From assembly GCA_902615325.1 (NCBI GenBank), contig CACMOJ010000007.1, positions 1 to 64,000 of the forward strand: a stretch of DNA of 64,000 bases. Direction: 5' to 3'. Below are positions 16,241-25,459 of the stretch, piece after piece (position 1 is the stretch's first letter; each line of letters begins with the position of its first letter). Under the pieces are notes generated by a model, which did no database searches, had not been told where the DNA came from, and saw only the letters and a program-made list of their open reading frames with translations. Source of the DNA: an uncultured SAR116 cluster alpha proteobacterium. GTDB lineage: Bacteria; Pseudomonadota; Alphaproteobacteria; Puniceispirillales; Marisalimonadaceae. Made by a program: the position numbers and the translations under genes.

Positions 16241-16828
16241 TTAACTCCATAATTCTGGGAATTTGGTACAAACAGCATCTATGACAAATTTGTTTTGTTT
16301 TGTATTCATTAAAATTGTTTTAATTTCATTTTTGTCAAATCTACCTTGAAGTTCAGGAGAAACTAAACATATCTTGAATTTTTTACTTTTTAGTAATTCA
16401 TAATTTTTTTTACTTAATAAAAATTTATTAAAGCAATCAATCCAAACCCATTTGCATATTAAATTTACATTCAAACATGTATTTATGTCTTCATATTCTG
16501 AAAACCTAATGGCAGAACGTTTTTCACAATGGCTACTATATTTTATAATGAAAGGGAAGCTCTGATCTAAAAAAAAATAATCGTTTATGTTATAATCTTT
16601 CATATAATCAATCAAATATCTTTCTAAACCTTCCTCTTTAACGTTCAATATTAACAGATTATGCTTGTAATGTTTTATCCAATCTTTAAAAAGAATACCT
16701 TTTAAAAAAGGATCATGGCTTATTATTAGTCTTGAACCTTGACTTCTGATGTCAACTTCAACTCCAAAATTAATATTTAATTTTTTTAATTCGTCAATAG
16801 AGTTTACCCGATGTTTGATCTTAATCAT
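16241..16828 (-). CDS. GDPD-like (glycerophosphodiester phosphodiesterase fold) protein
   Basis: A compact TIM-barrel protein of 195 residues. The catalytic layout of the GDPD/PI-PLC superfamily is visible: KHR near residues 5-7, GVEVDIRS with the metal-binding Glu and Asp, and ISHDPF with the second His. Later segments LILNVKEEG, FFLDQSFPFI and KICLVSPELQGR are those of a GDPD subfamily seen in LPS and capsule loci. Length is shorter than housekeeping GDPDs (~250). It overlaps the preceding GT2 gene by 8 bp, so the pair is co-translated. It might hydrolyse a phosphodiester of a sugar or polyol intermediate; the substrate is unknown. Confidence 0.7.
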   Translation of the reverse strand: MIKIKHRVNSIDELKKLNINFGVEVDIRSQGSRLIISHDPFLKGILFKDWIKHYKHNLLILNVKEEGLERYLIDYMKDYNINDYFFLDQSFPFIIKYSSHCEKRSAIRFSEYEDINTCLNVNLICKWVWIDCFNKFLLSKKNYELLKSKKFKICLVSPELQGRFDKNEIKTILMNTKQNKFVIDAVCTKFPELWS

Positions 16829-17522
16829 TAGTAAATCTCAAATTAAAACTGAATTTCAAAGTTCTGATGATAAATTTAATTTTATTTTTAATACTTGTAT
16901 TCCATTTGGAATGACCATATTTCCTTTCTTTGAAGTATACGTTAAATCTTTTGATATTTAATTTTTGTTTTTTTGCTTGAACATAAACATATAAATCTAG
17001 CGAAAAATCATTAGGTGGATTTTTCCATGAATTATAAAAAGATTTTGAGAATAAATTAGGTTGAGCATTAATCTCATTGAAAAATTTTTGAAAAAGGATG
17101 CTTTCAAATAAACTCATGCCCAATGAAAAAAAACTATCAAACATGTTTCTTTTAATTCTTTTTCCTTTTATAAAAATATCTTGATTAGAACAATTTTCAA
17201 ACAAATGAAATTTATTAAGCGCATCACAGGGGTTAGTTTGAAGATCAGCATGTGTCCAGCCAATATATTGTCCTTTAGAACTTTTAAGCCCCTCTAGAAT
17301 ACCGTTGCCATATCCAATATTTCTTTTTATGTTTATAAATTTCAAATTAAAATCATTGTTGGGAATTAATTTTTTAAAAATTTTTAGACTATCATCTGTA
17401 GAACCATTATTAACAAAAATTATCTCTGTGTGTTTATTAACATTTTTTTTACACTGATTTACTAATGTTTCTAAACTTTTAGCTTCATTGAAGCATGGAA
17501 TTATGAGTGAATTTCTTATCAT
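16821..17522 (-). CDS. Family 2 glycosyltransferase (polyprenyl-phosphate transferase-like)
   Basis: A 233-residue GT-A enzyme: SLIIPCFNEAKSLETLV, EIIFVNNGSTDDS, NIGYGNGILEGL and the metal-site region IGWTHADLQT. This resembles dolichol-phosphate-mannose-synthase-type enzymes, which make membrane-lipid-linked sugars. No C-terminal transmembrane helices are present, unlike classic GtrB. It is followed with overlap by the GDPD-like gene and preceded by a GtrA gene, consistent with handling a lipid-phosphate sugar. Confidence 0.8.
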   Translation of the reverse strand: MIRNSLIIPCFNEAKSLETLVNQCKKNVNKHTEIIFVNNGSTDDSLKIFKKLIPNNDFNLKFINIKRNIGYGNGILEGLKSSKGQYIGWTHADLQTNPCDALNKFHLFENCSNQDIFIKGKRIKRNMFDSFFSLGMSLFESILFQKFFNEINAQPNLFSKSFYNSWKNPPNDFSLDLYVYVQAKKQKLNIKRFNVYFKERKYGHSKWNTSIKNKIKFIIRTLKFSFNLRFTND

Positions 17523-17682
17523 ATAATATTTATTATTAATAAAGTTATAGTTACATGGAATTAGTGTATTTTATTCGTCTAAATTATATATATGAATGCT
17601 GAAAACACAAATATATTTAGATTTAGAATAGTAAAATTATCATATTTTATTTAGCTTATGTAAGAAGAACTTGAATAACGAA

Positions 17683-18129
17683 TTACTTAGTCTTGGCATT
17701 ATGAATATTATGAATAACTAAAGTCATTAAAACAAAATTAATAGTTGCAGCTATACCTATAGAGATTAAATAACTAATAAGATATCTTAGTTTATAAGGT
17801 TGCAAAATAAATAGAAAACTTTCATTCGTTATTTGTGACAAAATGAAACATAGTATATGAATAAATGCAAATTGATACCAAACTTTAAAGCTTTTTTCTT
17901 TATATTCAAAAGTATAATTTTTATTAATAAAGATTGATGACAAAACTCCAAGAATATATGAAACTGTTAAACTAAAAACAGAACTAAAATTTAAAAAAAC
18001 TAGACTGAAATAGACACAAGCTGTTGATATATTTATTATAATTCCAGCAATGAGATATTTAAAAACTCTAAATTTAATTATCTTTGAAAATAGTTTTTTC
18101 AATATTATTTTTTTCAAATTTGTAAGCAT
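17683..18129 (-). CDS. GtrA-family membrane protein
   Basis: A small integral membrane protein with four helices (near IAGIIINISTACVYFSLVF, FSLTVSYILGVLSSIF, FAFIHILCFILSQ, ISIGIAATINFVLM) and the family mark INKNYTFEY between helices 2 and 3. GtrA proteins are thought to help move undecaprenyl-phosphate sugars across the inner membrane for GT-C transferases. The start is uncertain: the ATG at 18129 overlaps the upstream nucleotidyltransferase gene by 56 bp, another ATG at 18159 by 86 bp, and TTG codons inside would reduce it further. Confidence 0.78.
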   Translation of the reverse strand: MLTNLKKIILKKLFSKIIKFRVFKYLIAGIIINISTACVYFSLVFLNFSSVFSLTVSYILGVLSSIFINKNYTFEYKEKSFKVWYQFAFIHILCFILSQITNESFLFILQPYKLRYLISYLISIGIAATINFVLMTLVIHNIHNAKTK

Positions 18130-19777
18130 TTTTAATAAGTTTTTTTTTGTCACTTGCATGAAGATCTATATTTATGTCATAAGGATGTCTTGCCCATTTG
18201 TGGAAATAAGATTGCCAATAATTAAATGTTTTTAATTCATATGGCGTTCCCCAAGAAAAATATTCATCAACAAAAAAGTTAACACATTTTAAATCAACCT
18301 TTATGGCCTCATCTATCATTGAATCAAGATAATATTCAGATTTAATTTTATTTTTATTTCGAATTAAAAGGTTATAACATTTTTCAAATATTAACATATT
18401 TTTAAATGTAAATATTCCAATTATAATAGAAAAGTCTTCAAATTTTTGCGGAGATTTTTTTACTAAAACTTTACTTATCAGGTTATTTTTGCTTTTAACC
18501 CAGCCATACATTTCAGGTTTTAATTTTGCTTCTTCATAATTTTTACTTGTCCATACTATGATGTCTGCATCATTTTCTTCTAATAAATTTAAATATGAGT
18601 CGTGATTATACAATACACCTGCATCACAAGGTGCAAAAAGAATATGATTATTATTATGTTTTTTACTTTTTTTTAATCTCTTAATAGCTTCGAAAGCAGT
18701 GCTAGCTTGCCCAGACGTAATTTGATTAAGACTTTTAATTATAGGATTATCAACTTTCTTTTCTATTAGTTTTTTCAGTTCATTAAATTTATAAATATTT
18801 TTTCTTAACATGAATATGTTTGTATTTGATTTTGGTAAATAATCTATTGCTTGAACTATCATTGGCTTTCCCGAAACTTTAATTAAGGGTTTAGGCATTT
18901 TGTAATTTTCTTTTACGAATCTCATTCCTTCCCCTGCTAATAGAAAAATATTAACGGAGTTTTTAACTTCTTTCTTTTTTATAAAATTGCCAGCATTTGA
19001 TTTTTCATAAACTTTAATAAAAGATTGTGACCATTTATTATATGTTTCAAAATCCTCAGGAGTTCCCCATTGTGAAAAATGTTGGAGTGGGTAAACTATT
19101 ACGTTTTTGTTATGTTTAAAATAATGTTTGTAAGCTAGCGATACATAAAATTCACCTTTAATTGAAAGATTTTTTTTTAAAACATAGTTGAAAGACAATA
19201 ACATTTCACTTGCATTTTTAAAATAATACGTCCCAGACGAAGCATACTCATTTATTTTATTTTTTGTAAACGGAGACTTTTCTTTTATGTCAATAGCTCT
19301 CAAATTACTCTCTTTTACATATGCATAATTTGTTTGACCAAAAGAATGTGGATGAAAACCTTTATATGCCGGAATAGCTCCGTCTATTTCGTCATTAGAT
19401 AAAATGGTTTTAAAATCGTCCCATTGCCAATAGCAATTAAAATCACAATAGTTTATGATTATTCTTTTGTTTTGCTTAATATATTTTTTAGCTTTAAGAA
19501 TAGCATTAATTGGTCCTCTCTTATGACTTTCAATACCTATGACTTTTCCATCTGGGCAAAATCGTTTTAAAATTTCATAGATCTTAAAATTCTCATTATT
19601 TAGATGATCATTATTGCAGATAAACAAAAAATCTTTCTCACCTGGGAATAAATCAATAATATGCGCTATGATAGGAATTTTATTTGCAAGAAGCATTGGT
19701 TTAGGCTTACTATAACCAACTTTTTTAAACCTATTTCCAAAACCAGACATTGGAATTATAATTTGAAATTTAGACAT
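18074..19777 (-). CDS. Tandem nucleotidyltransferase (two NTP-transferase domains)
   Basis: A 567-residue protein built from two full sugar-phosphate nucleotidyltransferase domains. Domain 1 (about 4-252): SGFGNRF at 11-17, PKPM at 25-28, NYCDF at 109-113, GFHPHSFG and QWGTPEDFETYNKW. Domain 2 (about 275-525): AGEGMRF at 281-287, PKPL at 295-298, APCDAG, GIFTF and SWGTPYELKTFNYW. Both keep the G-x-G-x-R-F and P-K-P signatures, so both may be active, possibly on different sugar or polyol phosphates. ATG 19777 is preferred over a TTG two codons earlier. It is divergent from the GT/kinase fusion gene 63 bp away. Confidence 0.85.
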   Translation of the reverse strand: MSKFQIIIPMSGFGNRFKKVGYSKPKPMLLANKIPIIAHIIDLFPGEKDFLFICNNDHLNNENFKIYEILKRFCPDGKVIGIESHKRGPINAILKAKKYIKQNKRIIINYCDFNCYWQWDDFKTILSNDEIDGAIPAYKGFHPHSFGQTNYAYVKESNLRAIDIKEKSPFTKNKINEYASSGTYYFKNASEMLLSFNYVLKKNLSIKGEFYVSLAYKHYFKHNKNVIVYPLQHFSQWGTPEDFETYNKWSQSFIKVYEKSNAGNFIKKKEVKNSVNIFLLAGEGMRFVKENYKMPKPLIKVSGKPMIVQAIDYLPKSNTNIFMLRKNIYKFNELKKLIEKKVDNPIIKSLNQITSGQASTAFEAIKRLKKSKKHNNNHILFAPCDAGVLYNHDSYLNLLEENDADIIVWTSKNYEEAKLKPEMYGWVKSKNNLISKVLVKKSPQKFEDFSIIIGIFTFKNMLIFEKCYNLLIRNKNKIKSEYYLDSMIDEAIKVDLKCVNFFVDEYFSWGTPYELKTFNYWQSYFHKWARHPYDINIDLHASDKKKLIKNAYKFEKNNIEKTIFKDN

Positions 19778-19840
19778 ATTCAATTTTAGTGTGGTATCTA
19801 TTATTATATTGTAATATACAGTAAAAAAGAAACATAGAAA

Positions 19841-21889
19841 ATGTTAAATCTTATTAACAATTTAAATACAAGTTTTAAATCTAATTACAATCTAATAATT
19901 TTCATTGTATCTTTAATAAAACTTTCTACTGCTGTTTTCTTTTTCTCTCCATTACCGGAGCAACATTATATACTATATCTACAAAAAATAATTAACAACT
20001 ATTCTATTTTTGTAGATCATGATTTTATAATTGAAAATCCAGAACTTCATTTTCCCTATGGGTTAATGATGATAATTATTTTTTATCCATTTTTTATTCT
20101 ATCAAATATTTTTCAAATTTCACCAGATCTCTCTTATTTTGGAACATTATTCTGTGCAGATTTATTAACATTTTTGATTTTAGGAAAAATGGTAAATATT
20201 ACTAAATCTAAACTTATTTTATTATTCTGGATGAATCCTATTATCTTTATTGTAACTTACTATCTTGGATTTAATGACATAATACCAACACTATTTCTTG
20301 TATTAACAATCTATTATTTACAAATTCATAAGTATTTCAGGTCAGCTCTTGCAATTTCAATTGCAGTTAGTTGCAAGTTCAGTATGTTTTTGATAATTCC
20401 AGTTTTAATAATATATTTGTATCAAAATAAATTGGTAAGGCATAATCTTACCCAATTTTCAATATACTCGTTTTTTTTTCTAATTATTTTGAACTTCCCT
20501 CAGTTCTTTAATGAAATATCAATACAAATGTTTTCTAAAAATCCTAATGCTTTAGAATCTATTTTTGTAAAAGGAATTGAATTCGGATCCCATACTTTAC
20601 TAGTTATGCCTATTTTTTATAGCTTTATTCTTATGCTAATTTGGAATATAGGTAGATTAAATTTTACTTTGTTCTTGAATATTTCATTTATTTTATTTCT
20701 TACAATAATATTTTTAATTAATTCATCTCCGGGATGGTATATTTGGGTAGTTCCTCTATTTATATTATTTAGTGCGAATTTTTCTATAAAAGATAACTAT
20801 TTAATTTCTTTATTCGTTATTCTGATTTTTATTGAAATAATGCTCATTGGTCCATTAGGATTTTATAACATTAGTTTTTATTCTGTTAACTTATTTAAAT
20901 TTAACTTTTTAAAACAGTATATTAATATTATTCATTCTGTTTTTTTTGCAGTTGGAATAATTTTAATTTATAGATTATGGAAATTAGGTATTAATGAGAA
21001 CTATTATTTTAAAATTTGGAGAAAGCCTTTTTTAATTGGAGTGTCAGGAAATTCAGGAGTTGGTAAAACAACTTTGACAAAAAATTTAGAAGAAGTACTT
21101 GGTCAAAATTCTGTTACAAATGTTAAAGGAGATGGATATCACGTTTGGGATAGAAATAGATTAATTTGGCAAACTATGACACATTTAAACCCCAGAGCTA
21201 ATCAACTAGATGAATTATATGAAGATGTTAGAAATTTGATTTTTGGAAAAAAAATTAATATTAAAGCTTATGATCATAAAAGTGGAAAAAAGCATTACAT
21301 AAATAATGTTATAGTTAAAAATTTTGTTTTATTGGAAGGATTACACATTTTAATTTTCAAAAAATTAAGAGAAAAATGTGATATAAAAATATTCATGGAT
21401 ATTAGTGAAAAATTAAGAAGAGATTTAAAGATAGATAGAGATACAAAACAAAGGGGCTACAAAAAGTTAGATGTTTTAAATAAAATTAAAAAAAGAAAAG
21501 TAGACGAAATTAAATATATTGAAACTCAAAGGAAATTTTCTGATTTAGTAATTAATGTCAAAGAAACTAAAAATTATTCTTATGTAAAAAACAAGGAAAG
21601 GTTGATTGTAGAAATTATTTCTAAAGATCCAACATATTTTATAAAATTATCTGAAGTTTTAACAAAGATTACTAATATTGGATTCGAAACAAATTTTGGC
21701 ATAGAAAATAAAATGACATTTTATGGACATATTTCAAAAACAGATGTAATTAAAGTTGCCAAAGAAATGATGTCAAATTATCATGATATTTTTATGAAAA
21801 ATGCTAGATGGTCTTGTGGGGCAAAAGGAATTGTACAACTAATTAGTTCTATAGAAGTTTATCAACAAATTATGAAAAGAATGAATTAA
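19841..21889 (+). CDS. Membrane GT-C-like glycosyltransferase fused to uridine-kinase-like domain
   Basis: A 682-residue protein of two unlike parts. Residues 1 to about 385 are a polytopic membrane region with roughly ten helices and, after helix 1, FFSPLPEQHYILYLQK and a FPYGLMM segment. This fits a GT-C type transferase using lipid-phosphate sugars. From about 398 a soluble P-loop kinase follows: GNSGVGKTT at 403-411, GDGYHVWDRN, HLNPRANQLDEL, YDHKSGK and LLEGLHIL, the pattern of uridine kinase/phosphoribulokinase enzymes. About 100 further residues end with NARWSCGAKGIVQLIS. No frameshift or internal start separates the parts. It is followed 1 bp later by a HAD phosphatase gene. Confidence 0.8.
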   Translation: MLNLINNLNTSFKSNYNLIIFIVSLIKLSTAVFFFSPLPEQHYILYLQKIINNYSIFVDHDFIIENPELHFPYGLMMIIIFYPFFILSNIFQISPDLSYFGTLFCADLLTFLILGKMVNITKSKLILLFWMNPIIFIVTYYLGFNDIIPTLFLVLTIYYLQIHKYFRSALAISIAVSCKFSMFLIIPVLIIYLYQNKLVRHNLTQFSIYSFFFLIILNFPQFFNEISIQMFSKNPNALESIFVKGIEFGSHTLLVMPIFYSFILMLIWNIGRLNFTLFLNISFILFLTIIFLINSSPGWYIWVVPLFILFSANFSIKDNYLISLFVILIFIEIMLIGPLGFYNISFYSVNLFKFNFLKQYINIIHSVFFAVGIILIYRLWKLGINENYYFKIWRKPFLIGVSGNSGVGKTTLTKNLEEVLGQNSVTNVKGDGYHVWDRNRLIWQTMTHLNPRANQLDELYEDVRNLIFGKKINIKAYDHKSGKKHYINNVIVKNFVLLEGLHILIFKKLREKCDIKIFMDISEKLRRDLKIDRDTKQRGYKKLDVLNKIKKRKVDEIKYIETQRKFSDLVINVKETKNYSYVKNKERLIVEIISKDPTYFIKLSEVLTKITNIGFETNFGIENKMTFYGHISKTDVIKVAKEMMSNYHDIFMKNARWSCGAKGIVQLISSIEVYQQIMKRMN

Positions 21890-21890
21890 A

Positions 21891-22604
21891 ATGATTTTAA
21901 ATAAGCCAAAAGCTATATTATTTGACTTAGACAATACTTTTTACAGTTATACAAAAAGCCATAATTTTGCTCTAAAAAAAGTTAGTTTAAAACTTAAAAA
22001 TGAATTTGGTATTAGTGAAGCTATTTTCAAAAAACACTATCAAATAGAAAATAAAAAAATAAAACAAATTTTAAAAAATACATCTTCATCTCACAATAAA
22101 TTCTTATACTTTAAAAATATTCTTGAGCGTTTGAATTTTACTCCTTATGTCAGAATGGCGATAGAGTTAAATAATTTATATTGGGAGATTTTTTACAATG
22201 AAATGTATCCTTTTCCATCAGTAAATGAATTTTTAAATGATATTAAGAAAATGGACATCTCAATTGGAGTTATAACTAACTATGATACTACTTATCAGTT
22301 TAAAAAAATTCTTTGTCTTGGTCTTGAAAATGAGATTGATTATTTAGTATCTAGCGAAGAAGTTGGAATTGACAAGCCAAGTGAAAAACCATTTTTAAAA
22401 ATGATGAAGTTACTTTCTTTAAAAAAAAGTGAAAGTTGGATGATTGGAGATTCTGTAAATCATGATCTTGAGCCAGCAAAAAAGATAATGAATTCAGTAA
22501 CTTTTTTATTTAGTAATCATGAGAACTCAAAAAGGAATAATTATGTTGACTTTGTTTTTAGTGATTATGCCTTTTTAAGAAGTAAATTATCCAAATTTAA
22601 TTAA
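21891..22604 (+). CDS. HAD-superfamily phosphatase
   Basis: A 237-residue HAD hydrolase with motif I at 11-17 (FDLDNTF, nucleophile Asp12 and acid Asp14), motif II in VITNYD, the Lys in IDKPSEKPF and motif IV in MIGDSVNHDLEPAK. The helical cap between motifs I and II is of the C1 type used on small phosphorylated sugars. It starts 1 bp after the GT/kinase fusion and ends 6 bp before an aldolase gene, so it should act on a phosphosugar intermediate of the same pathway. Confidence 0.85.
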   Translation: MILNKPKAILFDLDNTFYSYTKSHNFALKKVSLKLKNEFGISEAIFKKHYQIENKKIKQILKNTSSSHNKFLYFKNILERLNFTPYVRMAIELNNLYWEIFYNEMYPFPSVNEFLNDIKKMDISIGVITNYDTTYQFKKILCLGLENEIDYLVSSEEVGIDKPSEKPFLKMMKLLSLKKSESWMIGDSVNHDLEPAKKIMNSVTFLFSNHENSKRNNYVDFVFSDYAFLRSKLSKFN

Positions 22605-22610
22605 ATTAGT

Positions 22611-23642
22611 ATGAAAAATTCATTAATATTACGAAAACTTGCGGAGTATGTAGATAGTAACCCTGACTTAATACAAGCTTCTGGAGGGAATATTTCTTAT
22701 AAATACGATAAAAACATAATGCGAATTAAAGCATCAGGTAAAAGAATTAAAGAAATTAATAAAAGAGATGGGTTTGTTGATGTTTATTACAAACAAATAA
22801 ATAAAAAAATTAATATTAAAAATAATTATTCAAAAATAAATTTGGATGATTTTAAAGTCGAAAAAGTTTCTTCAAGAGTTTCAATTGAAGTTTATTTTCA
22901 TGCAATTCTTGATAAAATAGTTTTACATACACATCCAGTGATGTTGAATACTATTTTATGTTCTTTAAATGCTAAGTCTTTAATTAAATCTATTTTCGGA
23001 TCTAAAAATTTTATAAATTATATTAAACCAGGGTATCAATTAGGCTTAGAAATCCAAAATCGCTATATTAAAAACTCATTAAACAATGATGACAACTCAG
23101 AGTTTTACTTACAAAATCACGGTTTAATACTTTCAGGAAATAATGTAGACGAAATAATAAAAAGAAGTGAAATGATTGAAAAACTATCTCAAAAGTTTTT
23201 AAATTCTCAAAAAACTAAATTTAAAATATTTGACATACCAAGGTTAATCTACTCGAATCTAAATATATTTTTATGTAAAAATGAAGATATTAATAACTTC
23301 ATAAATACTAATTTTAGTCTAATAAAAAAAGCTACCAATCCAGATACAGTCATTTTTTGCGGGCCAGAAATATTTTTTGTAAACCCAAATACATTTATTC
23401 ATGACATAAAGCTTTTTTTTAAAAATTATAAAACAATACCAAAAGTTTATTTGTATAACAAAAAATTTTATATATTAACTGAGAACACAAAAAGTAAAAA
23501 TGCTATTGAAGAGGTATTATTGAGCCATTTAAAAATAACATCAAACATCTTTTTTAAAATTAAATCTTTATCAAAAATTGAATGTCAGGAGTTGCTTTCA
23601 AGAGATGATGAGAAATATCGTTTAAATTTAATTTCTAAATAA
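22611..23642 (+). CDS. Class II aldolase/adducin-family protein with C-terminal extension
   Basis: A 343-residue protein. The first ~200 residues are a class II (zinc) aldolase: QASGGNISYK at 22-31, IKASGKRI, Glu93 in SIEVYFHAIL, zinc ligands His106 and His108 in VLHTHP, and His170 in LQNHGLIL. Family members include fuculose-1-phosphate and rhamnulose-1-phosphate aldolases. The extra ~130 residues have no similarity I recognise and end in a basic region. All visible metal ligands are kept, so aldolase or epimerase activity on a phosphoketose is plausible. It is packed with the HAD and fusion genes. Confidence 0.78.
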   Translation: MKNSLILRKLAEYVDSNPDLIQASGGNISYKYDKNIMRIKASGKRIKEINKRDGFVDVYYKQINKKINIKNNYSKINLDDFKVEKVSSRVSIEVYFHAILDKIVLHTHPVMLNTILCSLNAKSLIKSIFGSKNFINYIKPGYQLGLEIQNRYIKNSLNNDDNSEFYLQNHGLILSGNNVDEIIKRSEMIEKLSQKFLNSQKTKFKIFDIPRLIYSNLNIFLCKNEDINNFINTNFSLIKKATNPDTVIFCGPEIFFVNPNTFIHDIKLFFKNYKTIPKVYLYNKKFYILTENTKSKNAIEEVLLSHLKITSNIFFKIKSLSKIECQELLSRDDEKYRLNLISK

Positions 23643-23644
23643 AA

Positions 23645-25459
23645 GTGAATTTTATATCAAAAAGATTTAAGTTTACAATTAATTACAAAAGGTTAATTTT
23701 ATTTTTTTACTTTATATCATTTGGTTTCTATGGTGTTCTAACACCCAACTATGATCTATTTCAAAAAAATAAATTATATCATGTATGTTTTGAGTTTTTA
23801 ATAATAATAATACCTCTTATTTTTATATTAATTAAAAAAAATGAGGATAAATACAAATTTAGCTTAAAATTTGAAAATCATTATTTATTCTGTATACCAC
23901 TATTACTTATATTTTTTTTTCTCAACTTATATCCATTAGAATATGAACTATATTCAGATGAACAAAGCTATGTGCTAACAAGTCATATTCATTCAATTGA
24001 AATGGCTAAGAAAATAATCAACATTTTTCCTGTAATCAATGAATTTGGAATAATTAAAATTGTAAGAGGTTTTGGTTTTTTAGTGATAATTTTTATAATA
24101 GCTAATTATTTTATTTTTCAAAATTTAAGTTCAAGACTTTTTTTCTTTTATTTCTTTCTATTATTAATGTCTTTTAGACTTGCTATATTAGTTTTTGGTG
24201 GATTTATGACCCCACATCCAATTATTCATAGTCTTCCTTTATTGTTCTCAGGAGTTATATTTGGGTTCTCTCCCATAGTTTTCAAAACGACCATTATGAT
24301 TATTTATTTTTTCTTTTCGATGATTCTAAGTTCTCAAATTTTTAAAAATAATCTTGATAAATTTATTTTTATTGTCCTGTTAATGACCTTTCCCATTTTA
24401 GACAATCTTAAGCATACAGTTGAACCGTCTTTATGGACTTTCGTTATTTTTGCATATGTTGGAAGCGTATTCTTGAAGAAAAATGAAATTAAAGATTTTA
24501 ATTCATTAATTAATTTAGTAGTTGTATTTTGTTTTTTAAGACAACCTTCCTTTTTGATACTAACTTTAATATTTTTCTTTCAAATTCATCATTTATTTAA
24601 AACTAGAACTCCAATTAAATTTACAAAATTATTGCAGTCTTATTTACCATTTATATTGTTTTTACCCTATTTAGTAAACAGCTTAATGCTTGGGACAGGT
24701 TCAAACATCAGTATATTAGAGAATTCACCATACCCAAAAATAGATAATGTTTTTATTTCATTAAGTGATTTATATGACTTTACTTTTTTAAGCATGCCTG
24801 AAGTATATCTTGTGCCATATGTTTTGTTTTTTTTAATTCTATTACGTAACAGTCAAAGCTCTTTTTTATTCTTCTTTATATTTAACATTATATTAGTTTT
24901 TGTGTATTTTTCTATCAATTCGAAGTTATGGTTTTTCGCTAAATATAAAATTGAATATTTTTTACCTTTTATAGTTTATTTTTGCGTGTTGATGAGCAGA
25001 TATAAATCCTCAATAAAGTACATTGCAATGACTTTTATATTAGTTTTAAATTCTTTCTATTTGATTTTCCCTTCATGGAAATTAGGAAATAAAAATTCAA
25101 AACCATATAGATTTGCTGGTATTATGTATAATACTCAACCAATTATTAGGAATATTATAAAGAAAAATACAGTATATCGAACATTTTATGTAGGCTTAAG
25201 TTATAAAGCGTATGAATTTTTTTCCCAAAATATAACCATAAAAGAATATTTAGCTATATCGAAAAGAAATTATGTACATGATAATTTTAAACAGTTAATA
25301 GATTTAGACTTAAAAAAAAATTTATTCGATTACGTTATTGTAGGAGCAATACCAAATCAAAAAAATATTATTAATTATTTAACTCAAAGAGGTTGGAAAA
25401 AAGTTGAAATAAAAACAAATAAAAAGGATAATACTAAGGCTTATCTGTTTAAAAAGTAG
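23645..25459 (+). CDS. Membrane glycosyltransferase of GT-C type (PMT/ArnT-like)
   Basis: A 604-residue polytopic protein with about eleven hydrophobic helices and a soluble tail of ~110 residues. An acidic pair in the first periplasmic loop (LYSDEQSYVLTSHIH) occupies the place of the catalytic Asp of GT-C enzymes, and FGGFMTPHPIIHSLP resembles the second conserved loop. It should transfer a sugar from an undecaprenyl-phosphate carrier to the glycan in the periplasm. The start is GTG at 23645, 2 bp after the aldolase stop. It ends the plus-strand block and faces a minus-strand GT2. Confidence 0.7.
   Translation: MNFISKRFKFTINYKRLILFFYFISFGFYGVLTPNYDLFQKNKLYHVCFEFLIIIIPLIFILIKKNEDKYKFSLKFENHYLFCIPLLLIFFFLNLYPLEYELYSDEQSYVLTSHIHSIEMAKKIINIFPVINEFGIIKIVRGFGFLVIIFIIANYFIFQNLSSRLFFFYFFLLLMSFRLAILVFGGFMTPHPIIHSLPLLFSGVIFGFSPIVFKTTIMIIYFFFSMILSSQIFKNNLDKFIFIVLLMTFPILDNLKHTVEPSLWTFVIFAYVGSVFLKKNEIKDFNSLINLVVVFCFLRQPSFLILTLIFFFQIHHLFKTRTPIKFTKLLQSYLPFILFLPYLVNSLMLGTGSNISILENSPYPKIDNVFISLSDLYDFTFLSMPEVYLVPYVLFFLILLRNSQSSFLFFFIFNIILVFVYFSINSKLWFFAKYKIEYFLPFIVYFCVLMSRYKSSIKYIAMTFILVLNSFYLIFPSWKLGNKNSKPYRFAGIMYNTQPIIRNIIKKNTVYRTFYVGLSYKAYEFFSQNITIKEYLAISKRNYVHDNFKQLIDLDLKKNLFDYVIVGAIPNQKNIINYLTQRGWKKVEIKTNKKDNTKAYLFKK

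Follow-up and report, generated by a model that had tools for sequence, protein, structure and literature searches.

The window (the whole stretch of DNA analysed, 64,000 nt) contains an eight-gene module at positions 16241–25459, broader than first noted. We consider it likely, with a probability of about 0.6, that this module is a self-contained gtr-type cassette for surface-glycan modification that makes its own unusual activated sugar; that the sugar is a pentulose, of the ribulose or xylulose type, is a tentative proposal.

Layout and conservation of the module

The module is organized as follows.

16241–16828, minus strand: small cytosolic glycerophosphodiesterase/PI-PLC-like TIM barrel, 195 aa (predicted fold; PGAP calls of relatives)
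16821–17522, minus strand: GT2, polyprenyl-phosphate-glycosyltransferase-like, 233 aa (PF00535, Glycos_transf_2, 2.7e-21)
17683–18159, minus strand: GtrA-family membrane protein (PF04138, GtrA_DPMS_TM, 1.5e-9)
18074–19777, minus strand: tandem nucleotidyltransferase (PF00483, NTP_transferase, and PF12804, NTP_transf_3)
19778–19840, no strand: 63-bp divergent intergenic region separating two operons (gene coordinates)
19841–20995, plus strand: GT-C domain of the fusion protein, ~aa 1–385 (predicted fold)
21020–21886, plus strand: phosphoribulokinase-like domain of the fusion protein, aa 394–682 (PRK profile and fold)
21891–22604, plus strand: HAD phosphatase (HAD_2; the RuBP 5-phosphatase model is nearest, below cut-off)
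22611–23642, plus strand: class II (Zn) aldolase-family protein (PF00596, Aldolase_II, 4.5e-11, above cut-off)
23645–25459, plus strand: variable polytopic membrane protein, candidate acceptor-specific periplasmic transferase (hydropathy; counterparts elsewhere)

Every gene named in an earlier note on this DNA was found in its place, but the set described there was too short, as it overlooked the phosphodiesterase-fold gene and the last membrane protein gene. The divergence of the two-domain nucleotidyltransferase gene from the fusion gene (whole gene 19841–21889, plus strand) agrees with the coordinates, as does the tight packing described for the plus-strand genes: the gaps are 1 bp between the fusion and HAD genes and 6 bp between the HAD and aldolase genes. 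The GtrA and GT2 genes lie downstream of the nucleotidyltransferase gene, as had been claimed, and the start of the GtrA gene overlaps it. The nucleotidyltransferase gene starts with ATG at 19777; the listed ORF, with a TTG start, begins at 19783.

Relatives were searched for with an alignment of the phosphodiesterase-fold protein as the query. The 329 matching stretches come from over 300 of the bacterial and archaeal species genomes sampled, with Prochlorococcus, Pseudomonas, Lysobacter, Yersinia and Erwinia among them. The fusion protein used as a single-sequence query gave no match among the genome contigs.

Co-occurrence was counted in the 53 loci with adequate flanks. The activation genes accompany the cassette in 51–53 of them (PRK fusion and HAD in all 53, tandem nucleotidyltransferase and aldolase in 51 each); GT2 is present in 48 and GtrA in 40. 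In four loci, of the Roseomonas/Belnapia type, neither GT2 nor GtrA adjoins the remaining five genes, which counts against the reading proposed here. Gene order is mostly one and the same across these loci, and the seven-gene set retains its order in Proteobacteria, Prochlorococcus (cyanobacteria), Acidobacteria, Geobacter and others. An unbiased sample of 398 Pseudomonadota genomes agrees: the phosphodiesterase gene was present in all five fusion-bearing genomes (P ~7e-11). Thus, the gene-neighbourhood check proposed in the earlier note came out in favour of conserved co-occurrence.

Escherichia coli plasmids carry the entire cassette beside IS26, and in other genomes it sits between unrelated housekeeping genes; such carriage and insertion argue that the cassette works as a unit. 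Among 5,426 complete E. coli genomes, the Yersinia proxima DNA had matches on the two plasmids only, so no E. coli O-antigen cluster could be tied to it at the DNA level.

Two variants differ in gene content. One genome (G164) has the same nucleotidyltransferase–GT2–phosphodiesterase set, with the other module genes replaced. Its locus encodes a HAD phosphatase and a non-homologous protein combining a P-loop region of the PRK/uridine kinase superfamily (a weak match), an FBP-aldolase-type region and a ribulose-phosphate 3-epimerase domain; judged by these domain matches, the kinase–aldolase–epimerase substitute points to pentulose phosphates. A distant sister cluster has two single nucleotidyltransferases along with a GDPD-like protein and a HAD. 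Searches of E. coli with the DNA of the sister cluster and of phages with its phosphodiesterase gave no match.

Protein families and catalytic residues

The kinase domain of the fusion protein scored 187 bits with the PRK profile and 94 bits with that of uridine kinase. Its predicted fold aligned with PRK structures at Z of 23–28.8 over 268–283 residues, and by this model the domain is a complete phosphoribulokinase fold, C-terminal part included. The earlier description as a membrane GT fused to a kinase holds, while its uridine-kinase-like label is rejected. The catalytic dyad established for Chlamydomonas PRK, Asp57/His105 (PMC9978339), has its equivalents in D431 (35/36) and H479 (33/36).

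No sequence family was reached by the GT-C domain in a Pfam search. Its predicted fold resembles Dol-P/Und-P-sugar-dependent transferases such as lipid-phosphate-mannosyl/glucosyltransferases, with Z of 26.2 for GPI mannosyltransferase I, 25.2 for ALG3, 24.9 for ALG6, 20.0 for ArnT and 19.3 for PimE.

The GxGxR, K and D motifs are intact in both nucleotidyltransferase domains: G14, G16, R18, K28, D114 and K169 in domain 1 and G284, G286, R288, K298, D387 and K442 in domain 2 are invariant (34/34). In the HAD protein, D12, D14, T129, K162 and D187 are invariant (33/33), as are the Zn-binding histidines and catalytic Glu of the aldolase (E93, H106, H108 and H170; 33/33). The aldolase-family protein also extends further at its C terminus, as RhaD-type aldolase/dehydrogenases do.

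Each of three proteins falls below the cut-off of its nearest known family. The HAD scored 158.7 bits with its nearest curated model, haloarchaeal ribulose-1,5-bisphosphate 5-phosphatase (NF053830, cut-off 330), the aldolase 18.1 bits with the Ru1P aldolase model (cut-off 300) and the kinase domain 195 bits with the NCBIfam PRK model (cut-off 236). Close matches to separate known pathways, which the earlier note had named as grounds for abandoning its proposal, were therefore not found for these three. The same scores, below the cut-offs of named pentose-bisphosphate enzymes, count against the pathway proposed below.

The phosphodiesterase-fold protein is encoded by the most conserved gene (~50% identity) and has no apparent signal peptide. 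It matched nothing in Pfam or NCBIfam at E 0.01; PGAP labels its relatives as PI-PLC/GDPD family. Its structural model (pLDDT 95) has a predicted GDPD TIM-barrel fold, with Foldseek TM of 0.66–0.75 to GDPD structures and E down to 3.9e-6. Residues H6, R7, E24, D26, H38, N62 and K64 are invariant (42/42).

The GT2 protein has weak similarity to the PgfS and ArnC models, below their cut-offs. A simple count from hydropathy gives the last membrane protein ~10 hydrophobic segments. An extra multi-TM ORF, divergent in sequence, adjoins the module in 43/53 loci; the counterparts match GT87 (one case), weakly PMT_2, or the AZOBR_p60025 surface-glycopolymer family, for which a full-text search of the open-access literature returned no paper.

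Proposed pathway and alternatives

The earlier proposal, in which a non-standard residue is activated and then attached in the periplasm, is consistent with the family assignments and predicted folds. In the pathway that we propose, the PRK-like domain would phosphorylate a sugar phosphate a second time (its substrate being most likely a pentulose 5-phosphate), and the HAD would remove the original phosphate and leave the new one. The resulting ketose 1-phosphate may be made, cleaved or epimerised by the aldolase-family protein. The tandem nucleotidyltransferase and the phosphodiesterase-fold protein would yield a nucleotide-activated residue, which GT2 would load on undecaprenyl phosphate and GtrA would flip. 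Finally, the residue would be transferred to a surface polysaccharide in the periplasm by the fusion's GT-C domain together with the variable membrane protein encoded last; the kinase–GT-C fusion would couple precursor supply to membrane use. Two points speak against this pathway: kinases of the PRK type act on primary hydroxyls and would yield no anomeric phosphate directly, and simple heptose-like logic does not account for two nucleotidyltransferase domains and a phosphodiesterase.

A specific version of this pathway, which we regard as quite doubtful, is a phosphate relay that activates the ketose at the anomeric C2. After the kinase and HAD had produced pentulose 1-phosphate, the first nucleotidyltransferase domain would form NDP-1-pentulose; the phosphodiesterase-fold protein would expel NMP, forming and opening a 1,2-cyclic phosphate to give pentulose 2-phosphate; and the second domain would produce NDP-2-pentulose, whose residue GT2 would put on undecaprenyl phosphate for ribulo- or xylulofuranosyl side branches. 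The relay would explain the joint conservation of two nucleotidyltransferase domains with a phosphodiesterase and a phosphatase, even in the distant sister cluster. It could also account for the rare xylulose residues that occur in bacterial glycans (PMC8707391), for which we found no description of an activation route. A link to xylulose of Yersinia enterocolitica O:10 was considered and is unsupported, as the published O-antigen cluster lists no such gene set (PMC11380512). Other strains known for ketose-containing glycans are Campylobacter jejuni RM1221, E. coli O95 and Devosia submarina; ketofuranosides are labile to acid.

The best of the alternatives, still an unlikely one, is a heptose-like route acting on an aldose. 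The ADP- and GDP-heptose pathways use a kinase, a HAD and a nucleotidyltransferase, and the enzyme classes here match. The kinase would form a sugar 1,n-bisphosphate, the HAD would leave the anomeric 1-phosphate and the nucleotidyltransferase would make an NDP-sugar, with no ketose or cyclic phosphate; the aldolase would supply the unusual aldose or ketose skeleton. Model similarity places both nucleotidyltransferase domains in the sugar-1-phosphate type, and GT2 loading of Und-P normally requires an anomerically activated sugar. However, the targets of PRK-superfamily kinases are primary rather than anomeric hydroxyls; the module has no GHMP-type kinase, and the aldolase and invariant phosphodiesterase are left unexplained. 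A simple route of this kind leaves the two nucleotidyltransferase domains, as well as the phosphodiesterase, unexplained.

We give little credence to a polyol or glycerol-phosphate route, in which the phosphodiesterase would free glycerol phosphate or a similar compound from phospholipid and the nucleotidyltransferases would make CDP-polyols for a phosphodiester-linked substituent. The GDPD fold with its catalytic residues kept and the composition of the sister cluster suit this route, but the module contains no reductase or CDP-polyol phosphotransferase, and the GT2, GtrA and GT-C folds suit sugar-lipid chemistry rather than phosphopolyol transfer. It is very unlikely that the kinase, HAD and aldolase form a separate catabolic pentose-bisphosphate route merely adjoining a glycosylation operon: the reaction sequence is indeed known as haloarchaeal catabolism (PMC9700705), but nearly every module locus encodes the kinase as a GT-C fusion, and the genes remain linked in different phyla as well as on plasmids.

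The proposed cassette probably adds a sugar to a surface polysaccharide, the layer that phages, plants and immune systems encounter. Working out its chemistry would add a new nucleotide sugar and assign a role to the GT-fused PRK domain; it might also reveal how rare ketose residues of bacterial glycans are activated.

Comparison with known systems

The earlier note recognised no described pathway, and our full-text search of the open-access literature found none with this gene set; partial likenesses are several. Known gtr O-antigen cassettes of serotype-converting phages (gtrA–gtrB–gtrX) are transferable units; in the gtr type, a lipid-phosphate sugar produced in the cytosol is moved by GtrA and used by periplasmic GT-C transferases. 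The module likewise encodes a GtrA-family protein, and its GT2 and variable polytopic membrane protein are candidates for the GtrB-like polyprenyl-phosphate glycosyltransferase and the acceptor-specific transferase. Such cassettes use host UDP-glucose and have no activation genes of their own, whereas the module has extra genes that would make its own activated residue and a GT-C fused to a PRK domain.

Phosphoribulokinases, Calvin cycle and archaeal, share the full fold and Asp/His dyad with the kinase domain described here. The latter differs in being fused to GT-C and in scoring below the NCBIfam cut-off, and in most of its relatives the acid of Walker B is found in Walker A instead. Heptose activation pathways have the same kinase–phosphatase–nucleotidyltransferase logic via a bisphosphate, with a GmhB-type HAD; they use a sugar 1-kinase, whereas the module has a PRK-type kinase plus an aldolase and a phosphodiesterase.

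The non-carboxylating pentose bisphosphate pathway of haloarchaea (PMC9700705) proceeds through the PRK product and the RuBP-phosphatase and Ru1P-aldolase reactions. The module likewise has a HAD nearest to RuBP 5-phosphatase with a class II aldolase-family partner, both below cut-offs, and its PRK-like kinase would supply the bisphosphate; the context there is nucleoside breakdown, here a surface glycan. Finally, CDP-6-D-fructose cytidylyltransferase of the CDP-glucitol pathway in Campylobacter capsules is a precedent for a nucleotidyltransferase activating a non-anomeric ketose phosphate for a surface glycan (PMC10918830); the module differs in its gene set, in its tandem nucleotidyltransferase and in having no SDR reductase.

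Gene content and arrangement of the module

The earlier note had described this block as a candidate sugar or polyol activation and transfer module. All the genes that it named were found where it placed them and fall into the expected families, with matches to two nucleotidyltransferase domains, a PRK-family kinase domain, HAD, class II aldolase, GtrA and GT2. The module is, however, wider than proposed: a 195-aa protein without a Pfam match and a 604-aa membrane protein also belong to it.

16241-16828, minus strand: 195-aa GDPD-fold protein (called the phosphodiesterase below)
16821-17522, minus strand: GT2
17683-18159, minus strand: GtrA
18074-19777, minus strand: tandem nucleotidyltransferase (NTase)
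19841-21889, plus strand: fusion of a GT-C domain and a PRK-like kinase domain
21891-22604, plus strand: HAD
22611-23642, plus strand: class II aldolase-family protein
23645-25459, plus strand: 604-aa polytopic membrane protein

The divergent gap of 63 bp holds if the NTase starts at the ATG at 19777. Gaps between the plus-strand genes measure 1, 6 and 2 bp, and the minus-strand GT2 gene overlaps the adjoining gene for the 195-aa protein. Inspection of ORFs around the module revealed glycosyltransferases and nucleotide-sugar enzymes. The genome (1.78 Mb, 63 contigs) has its nearest relative in genome_contigs in a SAR116-cluster alphaproteobacterial MAG (71% identity in the 195-aa protein).

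Co-occurrence, mobility and variants

A tblastn search with the fusion protein detected full-length relatives on plasmids of E. coli, Azospirillum brasilense and Hirschia baltica. The entire gene set is clustered on the first two; in H. baltica it is spread over ~15 kb with other genes interspersed. Counterparts of the 195-aa protein in all three are annotated as PI-PLC/GDPD family. An alignment of this protein against genome_contigs gave 329 relatives, of which 80 loci were retained and their ORFs scanned with profiles of all eight proteins. Among the 53 loci with ≥7 kb upstream and ≥6.5 kb downstream, the fusion and HAD were present in 53, nucleotidyltransferase and aldolase in 51, GT2 in 48 and GtrA in 40. 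The order NTase-GtrA-GT2-GDPD-GTC/kinase-HAD-aldolase is common to 27 loci; the aldolase comes first in seven. Since these loci were selected by phosphodiesterase similarity and include near-duplicates (L031, L039), we made an independent genome test. Of 398 Pseudomonadota genomes, five had a full-length fusion and six a strong phosphodiesterase match, all five being shared (P about 7e-11); prevalence is therefore about 1.5%. The gene-neighbourhood check proposed earlier found the genes together in the loci, and the genome sample confirmed co-occurrence for fusion and phosphodiesterase.

Roseomonas/Belnapia-type modules (L026, L033, L089, L092, also L065) keep the core five genes and lack adjacent GT2 and GtrA; at least L026, L033 and L089 carry two extra ORFs (about 375-390 and 440-516 aa) after HAD, with no Pfam match in L033.

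The cassette occurs in 2 of 5,426 complete E. coli genomes, both times on a plasmid. These complete eight-gene copies (L015:6022-14984 and L023:3774-12736), from human stool and frog-farm sediment, lie near IS26; one plasmid is typed IncR. In L023 the cassette is bracketed by IS26 and adjoins an AIDA-repeat adhesin pseudogene. Elsewhere the neighbours are histidine-utilisation, mutS, phosphoethanolamine-transferase or gnd/ABC-2 genes. The cassette behaves as a stand-alone unit.

In the variant module at L127:1474-12515 (genome G164), tandem nucleotidyltransferase, GT2 and phosphodiesterase adjoin a non-homologous protein of 1293 aa. At its N-terminus this protein has a P-loop region that weakly resembles the PRK/uridine kinase superfamily; it also contains an FBP-aldolase-type region (32.4 bits against a cut-off of 25.5) and, at 89.7 bits, a ribulose-phosphate 3-epimerase domain. 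A HAD-IIA phosphatase is nearby. Here unrelated proteins stand in for the same kinase, aldolase and phosphatase classes, and the presence of the epimerase domain points to pentulose 5-phosphates. The opposite strand encodes a protein in which an EcKL/APH kinase is joined to a domain of the inositol-monophosphatase family.

A distant sister cluster (L018, L019, L020/L149, L140-L142, L144) combines a GDPD-like protein (60-94 bits) and a different HAD (beta-phosphoglucomutase type) with, usually, two single nucleotidyltransferases and often a small cupin. Some of its loci have WavE and ABC-transporter genes. Two nucleotidyltransferase activities, phosphodiesterase and phosphatase therefore look like a functional core. 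Locus L143 (3965-9084) may represent a transitional form linking module and sister cluster: tandem nucleotidyltransferase, aldolase and GT2 match strongly there, the GDPD-like protein matches only weakly, and no fusion was detected in the vicinity.

Folds and catalytic residues

What the analysis establishes is the set of parts, how conserved they are, their predicted folds and the integrity of their active sites. The 195-aa protein is predicted to form a small GDPD-type TIM barrel (pLDDT 94.9), and the residues expected for GDPD catalysis are invariant in 42 of 42 sequences. The fusion (pLDDT 86.4) begins with a GT-C domain whose nearest structural matches are GPI mannosyltransferase I, ALG3, ALG6, ArnT and PimE, and continues into a complete PRK fold. 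The PRK catalytic dyad (PMC9978339) is retained in 33-35 of 36 fusion sequences. The window kinase (P-loop to EGLH, 21047-21340) has GKT and EGLH, like true PRKs; about 72 other fusions (L024-L103) have GKD with S/T/N-GLH instead, as if the acidic metal ligand had shifted from Walker B to Walker A. Catalytic residues of HAD, aldolase and both nucleotidyltransferase domains are intact in every sequence examined.

Proposed chemistry and known systems

The PRK-like kinase and HAD would convert a pentulose 5-phosphate via the bisphosphate to the 1-phosphate, a ketose phosphate that the aldolase-family protein may make, cleave or epimerise. Nucleotidyltransferase and phosphodiesterase would produce the activated residue, GT2 and GtrA would put it on lipid phosphate and across the membrane, and GT-C proteins would consume it. 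Speculatively, a cyclic-phosphate relay (pentulose 1-phosphate to NDP-1-pentulose, cyclic phosphate, pentulose 2-phosphate and NDP-2-pentulose) would account for the presence of two nucleotidyltransferase domains together with a phosphodiesterase, which is otherwise hard to understand.

No described pathway with this gene set was found in the open-access literature. The variable last membrane protein matches AZOBR_p60025, an NCBIfam model whose name refers to the formation of cell-surface glycopolymers, above cut-off in the Azospirillum module and below it in the Yersinia module; these matches support a surface-polysaccharide setting and are uninformative on the sugar. Xylulose is a rare but genuine glycan constituent (PMC8707391), and CDP-6-D-fructose offers a known case of a ketose activated with a nucleotide through a phosphate that is not anomeric (PMC10918830). 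The top curated model for HAD is the haloarchaeal ribulose-1,5-bisphosphate 5-phosphatase, with a score far under cut-off; the haloarchaeal pathway (PMC9700705) parallels the HAD and aldolase steps suggested here.
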